In this document: piece after piece, positions 18,529 to 23,783 of the stretch
How the letters are laid out: every line of letters starts with the position of its first letter
How positions within the stretch are numbered: position 1 is the first letter of the stretch
Assembly: GCA_030041415.1 (NCBI GenBank)
Contig: JASHNX010000017.1
Coordinates: 1-47,578 of the forward strand
DNA length: 47,578 nt
Source of the DNA: Candidatus Sulfotelmatobacter sp.
Lineage (GTDB): Bacteria > Acidobacteriota > Terriglobia > Terriglobales > Acidobacteriaceae
Direction of reading: 5' to 3'
Program-made: the position numbers and the translations under genes
The notes under the pieces: model-generated
Database searches by the model: none
What the model saw: only the letters and a program-made list of their open reading frames with translations
What the model was told of the DNA's origin: nothing

Positions 18529-20109
18529 TCATGAAACGTGGCGACCGTTGGCGCGTAACGAGAGTGTGCCGTCGTCATTCAGCTTTTGCTGGCAGGCCCA
18601 TCGCACTGGATAGCGCATGCCTTTGACTTCAATTTCCGCTCGAAGCCTTAGCCCTTGCCATTTCGTTCCTCGCACGGGCAATACAAACTGCGCCTGTCGG
18701 ATCTTTCCTGGCAGAGGATATCCCGCATCCAGACAACCGCTTTTCAAAGGCTTTCCGTCCTCGGTCTCGACCGTCACGCGCAATACACCGGGAACTCCAG
18801 CGATGCCGTCATTGGCGAAGCCGACAATCAGTCCCTGATAGCCGTTATCTTCGTAGCTCCAGATGAACGAAGGCCGCACGCGATAGCCGATACGGCGATT
18901 GATCCGGTCAAACCACGTGGGAAACGCATGATAGTACGCAGCCAGGTTCTTGGCATTGATCTCATGAAAGTTCCAAAGCGACCAGTAATTTGCGCCCACG
19001 TCCATCACGTGAACGATCATGTCATCAGCCGGCGAAACCCCATCATGCGACGTGAGCTTATCCGGAGGTTGGCTCGGCAGGCCTTGTTCAATGATCGCCG
19101 CAACCCACGGCGGACGATTGCTCAGAGCTTCGATCTGCTCATTCTCAATAAAGATCGTGTCGCTGCGGATCCAGTTGTTGCTGCGGACGCTGCGATCGAG
19201 CACTTCCGAATTTCCTACGCGGCTGAAATCCGGTTGCGTATTCGTGGCCAGGGGCGTTTTAGAGAAATTTTCCTGCTGAACTTCCCACATCTGAATCCAG
19301 GTGCGTTCCGCGGTCTGGTAGTCAGGAAATGGACTGTTACCGAACGGCCAAGTATGCCCTTCGCCCCAGAATCCGTAAAGAAATGTGTCGACGAACTCGA
19401 TTAGAGAGTTCCCGTTGAACTCTGACGCAAGTTGCTCGACCAATTCTTTGAACGCCTGCTGAAAGAAAGGGTGATCAAATCTCGGCTGATATTTCGTGTA
19501 AGGATTTTTCAGAAATCTTGCGCCTTCCGATGCCGATTCGTGGGAATCCATGACCAGATCAACGGTTGGAACCTTGTCGAGAACGAAATCCGGCAGAGCC
19601 GGTGCGTGCCAGTAATCCGGAGCGCTCATCTGAATGCGCATGCCGATCGCCTTGTCGTTCTTCTTTGCCTGGTCAAGTACAAGCTTTAGATATTCCGGCA
19701 ACTCCAGCTTTCCCGGCCGGGGCTGAATTTCGCGCCACGTAGGCCGGATGTAAAGTTTTTGTCCGAGCGGAAAACGTACCAGGTCCTCGATCGCTCGCGG
19801 AATGTTATCCGACTTGATTTCTTCTGTTCCCATATCTGCAGTGATGTAAGTGATCAAGCCTTTGCCATAACCGGGAACTACGTCTTCAGAAGGGGATGTC
19901 GTCATCACCACGTCGTCGGTTGGAATGACGGCGTCAGGCGGATATTGAGGAAACGGTCCCTGGTTCAGCCTGTCGGAAACCGGCGGCCCGGAGCCAAAGT
20001 CGTACTTACCCCAATTATGAGCTGGTACGATTGCGCGAGCGCTGGCGCCGCCGAACTCCGCGACCGCCGCAAGTGCAGCACTGGATTTTAGAAAATCTCT
20101 GCGCCTCAT
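18529..20109 (-). CDS. Tat-exported TIM-barrel hydrolase-like protein (DUF4832/beta-galactosidase-like)
   Basis: 526 residues. The N-terminus MRRRDFLKSSAALAAVAEFGGASARA is a twin-arginine signal. The middle resembles a (beta/alpha)8 glycoside-hydrolase fold: GLITYITADMG, LYIRPTWREIQPRPGKLELPEYLKLVLDQAKK, KAIGMRIQMSAPDYW, a conserved FVDTFLYGFWGEGHTW strand end with Glu, and IFIENEQIEAL. Aromatic and acidic residues at strand ends suit sugar binding. The last ~130 residues (RRIGYRVRPSFIW... to the end) form a beta-sandwich like those ending DUF4832 proteins. The assignment is by fold resemblance, and the catalytic residues are not proven. It lies in a same-strand group with a GH79-like hydrolase and uronate isomerase, which suggests processing of uronate-containing polysaccharide outside the cytoplasm. 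Confidence 0.7.
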   Translation of the reverse strand: MRRRDFLKSSAALAAVAEFGGASARAIVPAHNWGKYDFGSGPPVSDRLNQGPFPQYPPDAVIPTDDVVMTTSPSEDVVPGYGKGLITYITADMGTEEIKSDNIPRAIEDLVRFPLGQKLYIRPTWREIQPRPGKLELPEYLKLVLDQAKKNDKAIGMRIQMSAPDYWHAPALPDFVLDKVPTVDLVMDSHESASEGARFLKNPYTKYQPRFDHPFFQQAFKELVEQLASEFNGNSLIEFVDTFLYGFWGEGHTWPFGNSPFPDYQTAERTWIQMWEVQQENFSKTPLATNTQPDFSRVGNSEVLDRSVRSNNWIRSDTIFIENEQIEALSNRPPWVAAIIEQGLPSQPPDKLTSHDGVSPADDMIVHVMDVGANYWSLWNFHEINAKNLAAYYHAFPTWFDRINRRIGYRVRPSFIWSYEDNGYQGLIVGFANDGIAGVPGVLRVTVETEDGKPLKSGCLDAGYPLPGKIRQAQFVLPVRGTKWQGLRLRAEIEVKGMRYPVRWACQQKLNDDGTLSLRANGRHVS

Positions 20110-20312
20110 TCCTATGCGTGCTCCTGGATCAGAATGCTAGATGCAACTCAGGAAAATTGGACTTCTGTTCACCGTATGACCGGTCGACGTCGCTTTATGA
20201 AATCACGACAACGGCATTGCTTTCGATTGATCCAGAAGAATAGCAGATGGGCCCTAGGCTGAATCAGTTTCACCGAAGCGGCAGTGGGCTGCTTTGAATA
20301 GCCGGTTACCCA

Positions 20313-20340
20313 CGGGAGTTAGTAACGGTCGAGACTCCCG
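20313..20340 (-). other. Hairpin just after the small proline-rich ORF
   Basis: Perfect 7-base arms CGGGAGT (20313-20319) and ACTCCCG (20334-20340) with a 14-base loop, starting three bases after the small ORF stop on the minus strand. There is no T-run after it, so it may be a 3' stabilising structure or a factor-dependent end rather than an intrinsic terminator. Confidence 0.35.
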
Positions 20341-20343
20341 AGG

Positions 20344-20472
20344 TCAGATCTCTGCAGGATCCTCTGGATCCGGCTCCCGGATCGGCACACCGGGATTTTC
20401 CGGAGGATCGGTTGGTTCCTTCACCGGCGGGGGCGAGGGTTCCGACGAATCGCGAAACCTGTTTGCGTCCAC
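20344..20472 (-). CDS. Small acidic proline-rich protein (42 residues), GTG start
   Basis: A 42-codon ORF beginning GTG at 20472 with a near-perfect ribosome site, AAGGAGG, five bases upstream. This is one of the best such sites in the window. The peptide starts MDANRFRDSSEPSPPPVKEP and goes on in PxxPxxP style to end EPDPEDPAEI. Proline is about a third of residues, with many Asp/Glu and no hydrophobic core, Cys or signal peptide. It is probably extended and disordered. It stands alone in the 757-base gap between two Tat-exported hydrolase genes on the same strand. I recognise short bacterial ORFs of similar composition but no function for them. Earlier in-frame ATGs (up to 20622) would add residues of different character and lack such a ribosome site. 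Confidence 0.6.
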   Translation of the reverse strand: MDANRFRDSSEPSPPPVKEPTDPPENPGVPIREPDPEDPAEI

Positions 20473-20758
20473 GATAGCCTCCTTGAACCAGAGTTCCAGG
20501 CAGCCAGGGGTGGCTTCCAGGCCGGTCAAACTGCAAAGGCCCGACGAGGGCCGCCGTGTGCAGTCACTCTTGGACCCGTTCACTCTCGGGCCAAAGACGA
20601 GGCTGCTGGAGCTGATCATCACACCACGGCAAAAATTCTAGAAAGCCGCATAGCCTCAAGGAATCGGTGAAACCGTTTAGGTGTCAGCCTGAAGTTACCG
20701 GATAACGAATCGATCGTACGCTTAGGGACATCGAAAACACTAAGTCGAGGAGGGTCTC

Positions 20759-20908
20759 GTGGAAGCGCGTTTCAACTATTACAAAGCAGCCCCGGGAGTA
20801 GGTTCCCGGCGATTACAAGCCGGGACAATTTCGGATGAAAAAAACCGCGTAACGGCTTCGAGTGCGCTAGGTCTGAAAAGTAAGCAGGGCTGCACTTCCA
20901 GCGGGTAA
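20759..20908 (+). pseudogene. Relic of the 5' end of an AhpD/carboxymuconolactone-decarboxylase-like gene
   Basis: A GTG at 20759 has a strong ribosome site (GAGGAGGG, four bases upstream). The encoded N-terminus VEARFNYYKAAPGV strongly resembles the opening of AhpD-like carboxymuconolactone decarboxylase family proteins (M.aR.NY.kaaP...). After about 14 residues the similarity stops and the frame runs to a TAA at 20906-20908 without the family's CxxxxH catalytic motif, giving a 49-residue product. Its last 42 bases overlap the 3' end of the convergent GH79-like gene. The most likely explanation is a gene cut off by a deletion or rearrangement that brought the GH79 gene end next to it; a bona fide short peptide is the alternative. 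The family match is from memory of the consensus. Confidence 0.45.
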
Positions 20909-22327
20909 CTCGACCGCGAGACTACCGTTTTGCGCCGTCAGCTTTTCTTCTCGCACCGCCGACCAGCTGGCATTCGCTCCGACGGGTGTACCACCTAATG
21001 TCACGTCAGTCGCGTCATCGATGCGCGGAGCGTGTAGCCGGAGAACGTTTGCGTGGTTTCCCTGGTTGCTGACGCTCAGTTGAACGTCGCGATCGGAATT
21101 CTTATTGAAGATCACAGCTTTCAACCCCCCATCCTTGCTTCGCAACGCGTACGCAGTGAGCAGAGGGGCCTGCTCCAGTCCGTCTATCTGCGTCTCGATC
21201 AATTGCCCAGCGCCGGCTTCCGCGAAAAGCAACATCCCGTAACAAAGAGGACGCGCAAGGAAGCCGTGCTCGGGAGTCCCGGCAATCGGCGTGTACCATC
21301 CGTAGCCGCCGCCGTGAAAATTAATCCCCGCGCCTCCCTGCGATGCAAGTTGATACATCAGATCTGCTCCCCATAACGCCGACGCGAACGTATCGCTCAC
21401 GCCGGGTTTGCCCGCCGAATAGCAGGAGTTCGTCTCTGCCAGGCGGAAGGGCAAGCCGGTTTCCTGCGCCGTCTTTTTCATCCCATCAAATTCATCTTGT
21501 AACTGCGGGTTCGGCCGTAATAATCGATCGATTGTCATGGAAGGATCGGTGGGTGGACCCTCCGCATAGTAGTGTTGCGAGAGAAACATCACTTCATCTT
21601 TAAATCTCCGCGCGAAAGGGACAAGCCACGAAGTATTAAATGCGGTGTCTGGCCCTGCAAACGGGGCGCTCGGAACGCGGGCGCGAATAGTCTCATAGAA
21701 GCGCTGCCATTCAGCGGCGAACTGAGGGAATTCATAATCTGACTTGCGAATTCCATTGCGGTAAAACAAATCGGGCTCATTGCAGAGCTGAAACGCAATC
21801 AGCTTGGGCCCCGCCACATCCATCACGTACTCGGCTTCGGCGACCGCGTCTTCCACCGTTCCGGTTCCGATATTCAAACCGTAGATCAGCTTCCAGCCGG
21901 CAGCGTCGACGAAATCGCGCAGGTTTCGAATTGCCTGCGGCGAAATGTCGACCCGAGCCGGCGCCTTGTGGCCGGCATCGGGCCCCACAATAAGGTTGGC
22001 GGAAGTTGACGCTTCGCCCGCGGGATTTGGCTTCCAGTAACAATATTCGCTTGTATTGCCGCCAATCCGCAGCACTCCGGAATTTCCCAGCCGTTTCACA
22101 AACGCGATCAGGCTGGTATTGTCTCCCGAAAAGAAATTCGGATTCCCGAGCTGCGCCGATTCGTAGCTGAGGCCAGTGAAATCGGGTCCGATCTTGTTGC
22201 CGAGCCGGTCCGGCCGCAGATTCAGCCGAATCGCGGTAGATTTTTCGCCAGCAAAAGCGGAAGGCGCGTGGAGAGAAGCGCAGGCGGCCGCGGCGAGACG
22301 AAGGAATCTTCGACGATCAATAGTCAC
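20867..22327 (-). CDS. Exported GH79-like glycoside hydrolase (beta-glucuronidase/heparanase-like)
   Basis: 486 residues. A Tat-type signal (RRRFLRLAAAACASLHAPSAFA) is followed by the GH79 opening GPDFTGLSYESAQLGNPNFFS and LRIGGNTSEYCYW. The acid/base Glu is in QLCNEPDLF (Glu184) and the nucleophile Glu in RLAETNSCY (Glu298), the clan-A spacing. GINFHGGG and a C-terminal beta domain (about 400-486) complete the family layout. The expected activity is release of glucuronic acid (or its 4-O-methyl form) from glycans such as proteoglycan- or arabinogalactan-type polymers in the periplasm or outside. The gene follows uronate isomerase by 64 bases on the same strand, so released uronate can be fed into the isomerase pathway. 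Confidence 0.87.
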   Translation of the reverse strand: MTIDRRRFLRLAAAACASLHAPSAFAGEKSTAIRLNLRPDRLGNKIGPDFTGLSYESAQLGNPNFFSGDNTSLIAFVKRLGNSGVLRIGGNTSEYCYWKPNPAGEASTSANLIVGPDAGHKAPARVDISPQAIRNLRDFVDAAGWKLIYGLNIGTGTVEDAVAEAEYVMDVAGPKLIAFQLCNEPDLFYRNGIRKSDYEFPQFAAEWQRFYETIRARVPSAPFAGPDTAFNTSWLVPFARRFKDEVMFLSQHYYAEGPPTDPSMTIDRLLRPNPQLQDEFDGMKKTAQETGLPFRLAETNSCYSAGKPGVSDTFASALWGADLMYQLASQGGAGINFHGGGYGWYTPIAGTPEHGFLARPLCYGMLLFAEAGAGQLIETQIDGLEQAPLLTAYALRSKDGGLKAVIFNKNSDRDVQLSVSNQGNHANVLRLHAPRIDDATDVTLGGTPVGANASWSAVREEKLTAQNGSLAVELPAGSAALLTFQT

Positions 22328-22391
22328 AGAGTTTCATCAACCTCAAGCGGATGCCCTTGAGCTTCCGCCGATGTTATCTCTATTAATCCGT

Positions 22392-23783
22392 TCATAGTCG
22401 ATACGCCTTCTTCACCAGGTTGTAGGTGAGATCGCGCGCGATTTCCAGCGCCTCATCTTCGTCCAGCCGATGCTCTGCCACTAACTTCGCAAGAAAACTG
22501 CACTCCACGCGGCGCGCCATGTCATGCCGCCCGGGTATCGAGAGAAATGCGCGCGTGTCATCGTTGAATCCTACCGTGTTATAGAAACCGGCAGTCTCCG
22601 TCACGTGCTCGCGATACCGCATCATTCCCTCCGGGCTGTCGTGAAACCACCACGGCGGGCCGAGACGCAGGCAAGGATAATGCCCAGCAAGCGGCGCCAG
22701 TTCGCGGCTGTAGGTTGACTCATCGAGCGTAAAAAGAATGATCGTTAGATTGCGTTCGTTGCCAAATCGATCGAGCAACGGCCGCAGTGCCTCAACATAG
22801 TTGGTCGCGGTGGGAATATCTGCGCCCGTGTCGCGTCCGTAGCGCTCGAAGAGTTGACGATTGTGGTTGCGCAAGCTGCCGGGATGAATTTGCATGACGA
22901 GTCCATCTTCCAGGCTCATGCCCGCCATCTCCGTCAGCATCTGCGCGCGGAAGAGTTCGCTTTGCTGCGCGTCGGATTTGCCTGCGCTCACCCGGCCAAA
23001 AAGCTGTGCAGCTTCGACCGCAGGAAGATTCGCAGTTCTCGCGGTGGGATGTCCATGGTCCGTCGCCCTGCAACCGAGTTCGCGAAAACGCGCCCGAATG
23101 GATCGAAGCGCATTGAGATAGCCGTGCCAGGTCGAAGTATCTTCGCCCGTCTGTTCTGCGAGCATTATCAGGTTCGTTGCGAATTCAGGAAATTCAGGAT
23201 CGACTACTGGATCAGGGCGAAATGTCGGGATGATTCGCGCGTTCCAGTCCGATTCGCGAATCTTTTTATGATCTCCGAGCGAATCGAGAGGAGAATCGGT
23301 TGTTGCGAGAAGTTCGATGTTAAAGCGATCGTAGAGCGCTCGTGGCAGAAATTCGGGCCTGTGAAGTTTTTCTGTAATGCTGTCAAAATAAAGATCGGCA
23401 TTTTCCTCCGACAAACGATCCTGCATTCCGAATAGTTCCTGAAACGCATAGTCCAGCCACAGGCGAGTTGGCGTGCCGCGGAACAGATAATAATGATGGG
23501 CGAAGATGCGCCAGATTTCTCGCGGATTTGTTGCGGTCGACTGCCCGATCTCGAGATCGTCCAGCGAAACTCCCTGGCTGCACAGCATACGAAATACGTA
23601 GTGATCGGGCTGAACGAAAAGCTGTGCGGGATCTGAAAAGGGTTGATTCAATGCAAACCATCTCGCCTGCGTGTGGCCATGAGGGCTGAGGATCGGCAGC
23701 GTTCGAATCTCCTCATACAAGCTCTTCGCGATTTTCCGTGTACTCGGCTCGGCGGGGAAAAGATGGTCGGGGTGGATCAGCAT
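22392..23783 (-). CDS. uxaC: Uronate (glucuronate) isomerase
   Basis: 463 residues, normal for UxaC (COG1904, amidohydrolase superfamily). The first metal-binding motif is present as SPHGHTQARWF (His35, His37). Further conserved segments are LFRGTPTRLWLDYAFQELFG, LLATTDSPLDSLGDH, MQIHPGSLRNHN and the C-terminal VGFNDDTRAFLSIPGRHDMARRVECSFLAKLV. It converts D-glucuronate to D-fructuronate (and galacturonate to tagaturonate), the first cytoplasmic step of uronate breakdown. The following enzymes (UxuB/UxuA or UxaB/UxaA, KdgK, KdgA) are not in this window. The HGHTQARW motif differs from the E. coli form, which suggests the divergent subgroup common in soil bacteria. It leads into the GH79-like gene on the same strand. 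Confidence 0.92.
   Translation of the reverse strand: MLIHPDHLFPAEPSTRKIAKSLYEEIRTLPILSPHGHTQARWFALNQPFSDPAQLFVQPDHYVFRMLCSQGVSLDDLEIGQSTATNPREIWRIFAHHYYLFRGTPTRLWLDYAFQELFGMQDRLSEENADLYFDSITEKLHRPEFLPRALYDRFNIELLATTDSPLDSLGDHKKIRESDWNARIIPTFRPDPVVDPEFPEFATNLIMLAEQTGEDTSTWHGYLNALRSIRARFRELGCRATDHGHPTARTANLPAVEAAQLFGRVSAGKSDAQQSELFRAQMLTEMAGMSLEDGLVMQIHPGSLRNHNRQLFERYGRDTGADIPTATNYVEALRPLLDRFGNERNLTIILFTLDESTYSRELAPLAGHYPCLRLGPPWWFHDSPEGMMRYREHVTETAGFYNTVGFNDDTRAFLSIPGRHDMARRVECSFLAKLVAEHRLDEDEALEIARDLTYNLVKKAYRL

Follow-up and report, generated by a model that had tools for sequence, protein, structure and literature searches.

A short acidic, proline-rich open reading frame (ORF) in a genome of Candidatus Sulfotelmatobacter sp. 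raises the question of whether it is a real gene and, if so, what its product could do. The original prediction, drawn from the 47,578-nucleotide stretch of DNA analysed here (the window), held that the ORF encodes a small protein, that it is announced by a near-perfect ribosome site, and that it lies alone between two exported hydrolase genes and is followed by a hairpin. As described below, a real small-protein gene of an acidobacterium is supported, but by comparison with relatives (homologous ORFs and selection on the core) and not by the ribosome site.

The small ORF and its surroundings

We examined the ORF together with its flanking features, the coordinates of which are collected in Table 1. 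The translated product (VDANRFRDSSEPSPPPVKEPTDPPENPGVPIREPDPEDPAEI) contains 12 prolines among its 42 residues (29%), 11 Asp/Glu, 4 Lys/Arg, a single aromatic residue and no cysteine, and its pI is ∼4.1, in agreement with the description of an acidic, proline-rich protein. The ORF also stands alone as claimed: the upstream GH79 gene ends 394 nt before it, and the next gene starts 234 nt beyond it. The claim of two exported hydrolases held in part: the upstream product passes the Pfam GH79 cut-offs, but the downstream 526-aa protein matched no enzyme family, and the TAT signals of both flanking proteins fall below the cut-off. Similarly, a hairpin does follow the stop codon, but its stability is within chance and it is absent across 29 homologous downstream regions, in which the mean z is 0.04 and no region lies below −2.

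Two further observations concern the neighborhood of the ORF. A glucuronate isomerase gene (uxaC) adjoins the GH79-type gene, and the pair (20867-23783, minus strand) suggests a uronate-use cluster. On the plus strand, at 20748-20977, lies a gene remnant that keeps an AGGAGG sequence, the first ∼14 codons and the last part of the gene, with ∼385 bp gone between them. Its counterpart in a contig of the nearest relative, genome G024, is an intact 158-aa ORF (L111 3517-3993), which from its sequence we take to be carboxymuconolactone-decarboxylase/AhpD-like.

Table 1. Positions of the small ORF, its start-region features and its neighbors in the window
Feature	Position	Strand	Remarks
Small acidic proline-rich ORF	20344..20472	-	42 codons; GTG at 20472, TGA stop at 20344
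Conserved C-terminal core and stop	20344..20445	-	SEPSPPPVKEPTDPPENPGVPIREPDPEDPAEI followed by stop; from alignment; pN/pS 0.23; in-frame stops 0/24 loci
AAGGAGG, possible Shine-Dalgarno site	20478..20484	-	5 nt before GTG; alone not above chance; deleted in nearest relative G024
GGCTGCC, 6/7 match to family -35-like block	20499..20505	-	26 nt before GTG (28 nt before ATG in relatives); weak, read by eye against family block
Alternative in-frame starts	20518..20529	-	TTG 20529 giving 61 codons; CTG 20520 giving 58 codons; after degenerate CAGTTTGA
Hairpin after stop codon	20312..20343	-	−17.5 kcal/mol; z −1.77 versus shuffles; predicted stem without T-run
GH79 gene	22327-20867	-	Upstream of small ORF
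526-aa protein gene	20109-18529	-	Downstream of small ORF; same strand

Homologues of the small ORF in relatives

Homologous ORFs, whose absence from relatives was to count against a gene, are common within the genus. A tblastn-type search at E ≤0.1 found matches in 37 of 101 genomes; 31 of these, counting that of the window, belong to the genus. A profile search matched 31 of the 45 genus genomes (Candidatus Sulfotelmatobacter-like Acidobacteriota) at E <1e-7. The other 14 genus genomes, among them the 99%-complete G006 and G010, gave no strong profile match. Single weak matches in each of five genus members (G010, G038, G012, G023 and G001) were rejected on reading. When 250 genomes of the taxonomic family were searched with the profile at E ≤0.01, 21 matched, 11 in the genus and 10 in other genera; seven of these 10, from five genera, were judged true members (G421, G469, G473, G426, G486, G518 and G442), and the remaining three (G394, G050 and G428) were rejected as unrelated proline-rich frames on reading. 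In a phylum-wide set of 297 genomes, nothing matched apart from the window genome, a single genus member and, weakly, G254 (E 0.004). Finally, 84,980 species, represented by one genome each, contained 30 stretches with the core pattern, 19 of which were confirmed as family loci. Because all 19 lie in acidobacterial records (titled Acidobacteria, Acidobacteriaceae, Candidatus Sulfotelmatobacter, Terriglobia or Terriglobales MAGs), the family looks restricted, within the sensitivity of these sequence searches, to this part of the Acidobacteriota. The titled records with a family match are all metagenome assemblies, so that family copies may contain errors, and the lineage was seen only in soil and peat MAGs.

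Searches against known families placed the protein nowhere. No Pfam family matched any of 28 members, and one NCBIfam family matched 2 of the 28 with a best E of 0.47, which is not credible. A PDB profile match to FAP252, a flagellar-associated protein (E 0.033), was taken as a low-complexity proline match and set aside. Plasmids gave no match in a tblastn search with the peptide of locus L009 as sole query, and none of the four stretches of viral contigs that match the pattern was confirmed. Measured against Pfam, NCBIfam and the PDB, the small proteins form a family that is new and uncharacterised, and literature searches returned nothing on it. It is at the same time a new example of a common kind, since the Global Microbial smORFs Catalog, as far as its summary figures go, counts 52.6 million genus-specific small-protein families (PMC11364881).

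Purifying selection on the coding frame of the core

A Ka/Ks-type comparison had been proposed as a check of the ORF. We carried it out on the 33-codon C-terminal core in 24 of 30 loci, leaving out L024 (an N in the assembly), L032 (truncated) and L033, L025, L027 and L031 (a length change or a different end). With pN at 0.172 and pS at 0.746, the latter near saturation, the ratio of 0.23 indicates strong purifying selection on the core in exactly the frame of the window ORF. The frame contains no stop in any of the 24 loci, whereas the other two forward frames are interrupted in 5 and 17 of them. One reverse frame reaches nearly the same ratio (0.25), since its free third positions coincide with those of the coding frame, yet it has stops in 10 of the 24. 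The comparison of the window copy with that of G024 points the same way, with 10 synonymous changes at 25 sites and 4 non-synonymous changes at 74 (Fisher p 1e-4). The N-terminal part is little constrained: in six 53-aa members its ratio is 0.76 against 0.14 in the core. Two closer pairs, each with few changes, gave 0.27 against 0.03 (L021/L023) and 0.53 against 0.47 (L014/L030), the latter showing no difference between the two parts.

Frame-breaking changes among relatives, named by the original prediction as evidence against a gene, occur in a minority of copies and near the N terminus; the core frame is intact in all 24 loci tested. The copy in G011 has an internal deletion and a frameshift, the G022 copy lacks one base between its ATG and the core, on contig 287 of G026 a TAA closes the frame within a few codons of the ATG, the frame in G518 has no usual start codon, and in G036 an N stands near the end of the small gene. 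It is possible that assembly errors lie behind the damaged copies. G026, for which 5% contamination is given, has two copies: one, on contig 282 (L149 1-150), is cut by the contig end and has a good upstream element, and the other (locus L012) is the one with the early TAA.

These results bear directly on whether the ORF is a chance reading frame, or a non-coding RNA element with an accidental coding look. Such a reading would draw on the shortness and low complexity of the frame and on a Shine-Dalgarno-like site that is not above chance. The codon-position pattern and the selection refute it for the family; in addition, one-codon insertions or deletions in L025, L027 and L031 preserve the frame in the alignment, and an Rfam search of window positions 20000 to 21000 returned nothing at E up to 1. 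We give a chance origin next to no credence. Judged by sequence comparison, the window ORF belongs to a family that is a genuine protein-coding gene.

Anatomy and predicted structure of the core

The consensus of the C-terminal core reads EPxPxP[IV]KEPxxPPENPDxPVREPDPxxPxQI-stop. In an alignment of 28 sequences, ten of its columns do not vary: one is Asn, one is Glu and the others are mostly Pro. The window copy has Gly at a nearly invariant Asp (NPG for the family NPD). At the site where the window copy has PPP, P-x-P is kept in 32 of 32 copies, and PPP itself is found in 18; the other 14 have PAP, PFP, PSP, PTP, PVP or PGP. The AlphaFold2 model has neither helix nor strand (pTM 0.18), and its mean pLDDT of 74.2 exceeds what purely disordered chains usually give. 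We consider it very probable that the small protein is intrinsically disordered, and we infer for its core an extended polyproline-II chain. The proline-rich linker of TonB is such a polyproline-II segment, and in it, as in the small protein, Pro alternates with Glu, Lys or Arg in what would be an extended chain. In contrast to a TonB-type linker, the small protein is free-standing, net acidic and conserved at its end, it has no membrane anchor or globular domain, and no sequence match between the two was found.

The end of the protein is conserved as well. The final residue is Ile or Met in 36 of 37 copies, those from other genera included, and the divergent members L082 and L084, in which the preceding residues have changed, still end in AQI. 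PDZ domains and ClpX provide a general basis for the reading of a terminal carboxylate or degron, and the chief rival to the explanation we favor is built on this: the [QE][IM]-COOH end would be a degron or a PDZ-type ligand, and the small protein would serve a protease (such as ClpXP or one of the HtrA/Tsp type) as an adaptor or regulate it competitively. Conservation of a free end right up to the stop codon, including that in L082 and L084, suggests recognition of the carboxylate. Against this, we saw no signal peptide by eye, so that periplasmic PDZ proteases would not meet the peptide, and there was no protease among the ten clusters of neighboring genes that were scanned. Overall, we regard a protease-directed role as improbable.

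An upstream element in most relatives and a different start region in the window

The ATG of most homologues lies exactly five bases downstream of the sequence GCATCTGA, which is itself separated from GGCTTCC, further upstream, by exactly 15 bases. We anchored 24 of the 30 loci on this block, leaving out L001, L006, L010, L012 and L028 (no clear block) and L032 (truncated). The anchoring used the GCATC block itself, which inflates the conservation of GCATCTGA in the anchored set and leaves the counts for the −22 block and the start codon unaffected. An ATG or GTG follows at exactly 5 nt in 21 of the 24 anchored loci (out of frame with the core in L018), and GGCTTCC is found at exactly −22 in 13, as a full match in 10 and with 6 of 7 bases in three more; beyond GGCTTCC identity is at the random level (0.25-0.27). 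In L014, L030 and L033 the block is retained while the start has moved further down, behind GGAG, as a promoter, and not a translation signal, would be expected to show. A −10-like signal ∼10-12 nt before the start, as looked for in leaderless genes, is present in 21 of the 24 anchored loci and not in the window copy. The likeness to bacterial leaderless genes lies in a −10-like block that ends 5 nt before the start in most homologues; the difference, as far as the description in PMC3160421 goes, is that the block reads GCATCTGA and does not fit the TANNNT consensus, and that the window copy is without it. Leaderless genes were reported there in three of three Acidobacteria genomes, at a mean of 13.3% (PMC3160421). 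Overall, the upstream element of the family is probably a promoter that gives a leaderless mRNA.

The element appears to be specific to this gene. With exact blocks and spacings of 8-24, 45 genomes contained 12 matches, of which seven lie at the small gene, all with a spacing of 15, and five elsewhere, none with that spacing. With the spacing fixed at 15 and one mismatch allowed there were 43 matches, 12 at the small gene (one of them at a second, partial copy) and 31 elsewhere, compared with 37 for a reversed control pattern searched in the same manner. Neither the exact nor the one-mismatch search of the 45 genomes thus points to a regulon for GGCTTCC-N15-GCATCTGA. A related arrangement, GGCTTCC-N15-GCATCTAA, with a related spacer, is found away from the small gene at G034:C849:9286-9315 and G022:C29:93588-93617 and could be another conserved site.

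The start region of the window copy differs from this pattern. It and three relatives have a Shine-Dalgarno-like sequence before the start and not the leaderless arrangement, and the genome of the window (G000) contains no match to the full upstream element even with one mismatch. The original prediction had called the translation signal much stronger than expected by chance. This did not hold: AAGGAGG occurs six times on the two strands of the window, compared with 5.3 expected from 60 first-order Markov simulations, and its combination with a start codon 4-10 nt further on that opens an ORF of 30 aa or more occurs twice, compared with 0.6 expected. Because the motif is not unusual in the window and is missing from the closest relative and from most of the family, it is a weak argument for the gene. 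Before the GTG, at distances of 16 and 19 codons, stand an in-frame CTG and an in-frame TTG, and the frame that they would open is open in G024 too. Synteny with G024, the one close relative seen, holds here, but a net in-frame loss of 54 nt has removed both AAGGAGG and GTG from its copy, so that this copy either starts at the TTG or CTG or is broken. In our judgment the GTG is the start used in the window copy, a view we hold with moderate confidence. Separately, a 32-bp stretch upstream of the ORF (window 20512-20543) is identical in the window and G024 and in the alignment is better kept than the coding core.

The same region invites the reading that the window copy is a decaying member of a real family, in which the promoter element has been lost, an Asp has changed and the AAGGAGG-GTG pair is fortuitous. 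The missing upstream element in G000, NPG in place of NPD and the unexceptional frequency of AAGGAGG are what decay would leave, the nearest relative has lost its start region, and the neighboring gene remnant marks a decaying spot. On the other hand, the frame is intact, the changes relative to G024 are mostly synonymous (10/25 versus 4/74), and a strong Shine-Dalgarno-like site lies near the expected start position. We consider decay of this copy rather unlikely, if a little less so than a protease-directed role of the family; it is compatible with a ligand role of the protein as well as with an adaptor or degron role.

Gene neighborhoods of the family

Neighbors of the small gene vary by subclade, the recurrent surroundings being rplT-pheS with a convergent UPF0004/radical-SAM gene, presumably of the methylthiotransferase type, or response regulators; neither is found in the window. 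The UPF0004/radical-SAM gene lies downstream, convergent and up to 5.4 kb away, in only 9 of 29 neighborhoods. A RiPP precursor was considered and is disfavored: there is no dedicated modifying enzyme, the radical-SAM gene being present in 9/29 only, and the window peptide has no Cys. In one subclade (L101, L103 and L108), a divergent ORF of 204-209 aa (cluster C26) stands ∼107-126 bp upstream of the small gene; the one member scanned had no Pfam match. With the gene mostly on its own and its neighbors differing, the genomic context names no partner.

The neighborhoods also bear on the possibility of a regulatory leader peptide, in which a PPP run would stall ribosomes that are short of elongation factor P and thereby control a downstream gene. 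The window copy has PPP, as do 18 of 32 homologues, but it is replaced in the other 14, so that the stall motif is not conserved. Moreover, in 18 of 29 neighborhoods the next downstream ORF (at least 90 aa, by a crude ORF caller) runs on the other strand; its identity changes, and the next gene in the window starts 234 nt away. We therefore consider a leader peptide very improbable.

Discussion

The explanation that we favor, and think reasonably likely as a whole, is that of a stand-alone gene for a disordered small protein with a ligand core and, in most relatives, a promoter of its own. The product would be a small (∼40-58 aa), cytoplasmic, intrinsically disordered protein, the working part of which would be the C-terminal ∼33 residues, comprising two P-[IV]-[KR]-E-P-like units in a polyproline-II-like chain that ends in the conserved [QE]-[IM] carboxyl terminus. 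The mode of action that we think likeliest is that this chain would be a ligand that docks on a folded partner able to read the PxP/REP pattern together with the free C terminus; binding of a partner by the core and the free end is a tentative proposal. In most relatives, GGCTTCC-N15-GCATCTGA would act as the gene's own promoter and give rise to a leaderless mRNA, and in the window copy and three relatives a Shine-Dalgarno-like sequence would serve before the start instead. The complete sequence of steps, from a family-specific promoter through a leaderless mRNA to a polyproline-II ligand that is disordered and bivalent and has a dedicated receptor for its free [QE][IM] end, we regard as improbable in that full form. 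Our literature searches found no stand-alone peptide regulator of such a type described for Acidobacteriota.

Like the families of the Global Microbial smORFs Catalog, as they are characterised in the portion of PMC11364881 that concerns them, the one described here is shorter than 100 codons, confined to a narrow clade and free of conserved-domain annotation. It differs from the genus-specific families of that catalogue, within the same portion of the work, in extending over several genera, in the selection on its core, in the conservation of its C-terminal end and in having an upstream element of its own (PMC11364881).

Clade-restricted small-protein families are very common, and the interest of one more is accordingly modest. 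The results nevertheless describe a conserved gene under selection that is easily missed for its length, and they offer a clean test case, in which a single gene comes with a single conserved end and a single upstream element specific to it. If the leaderless reading is true, the results would also indicate that a leaderless start can turn into a Shine-Dalgarno-led one within a single family of small genes.
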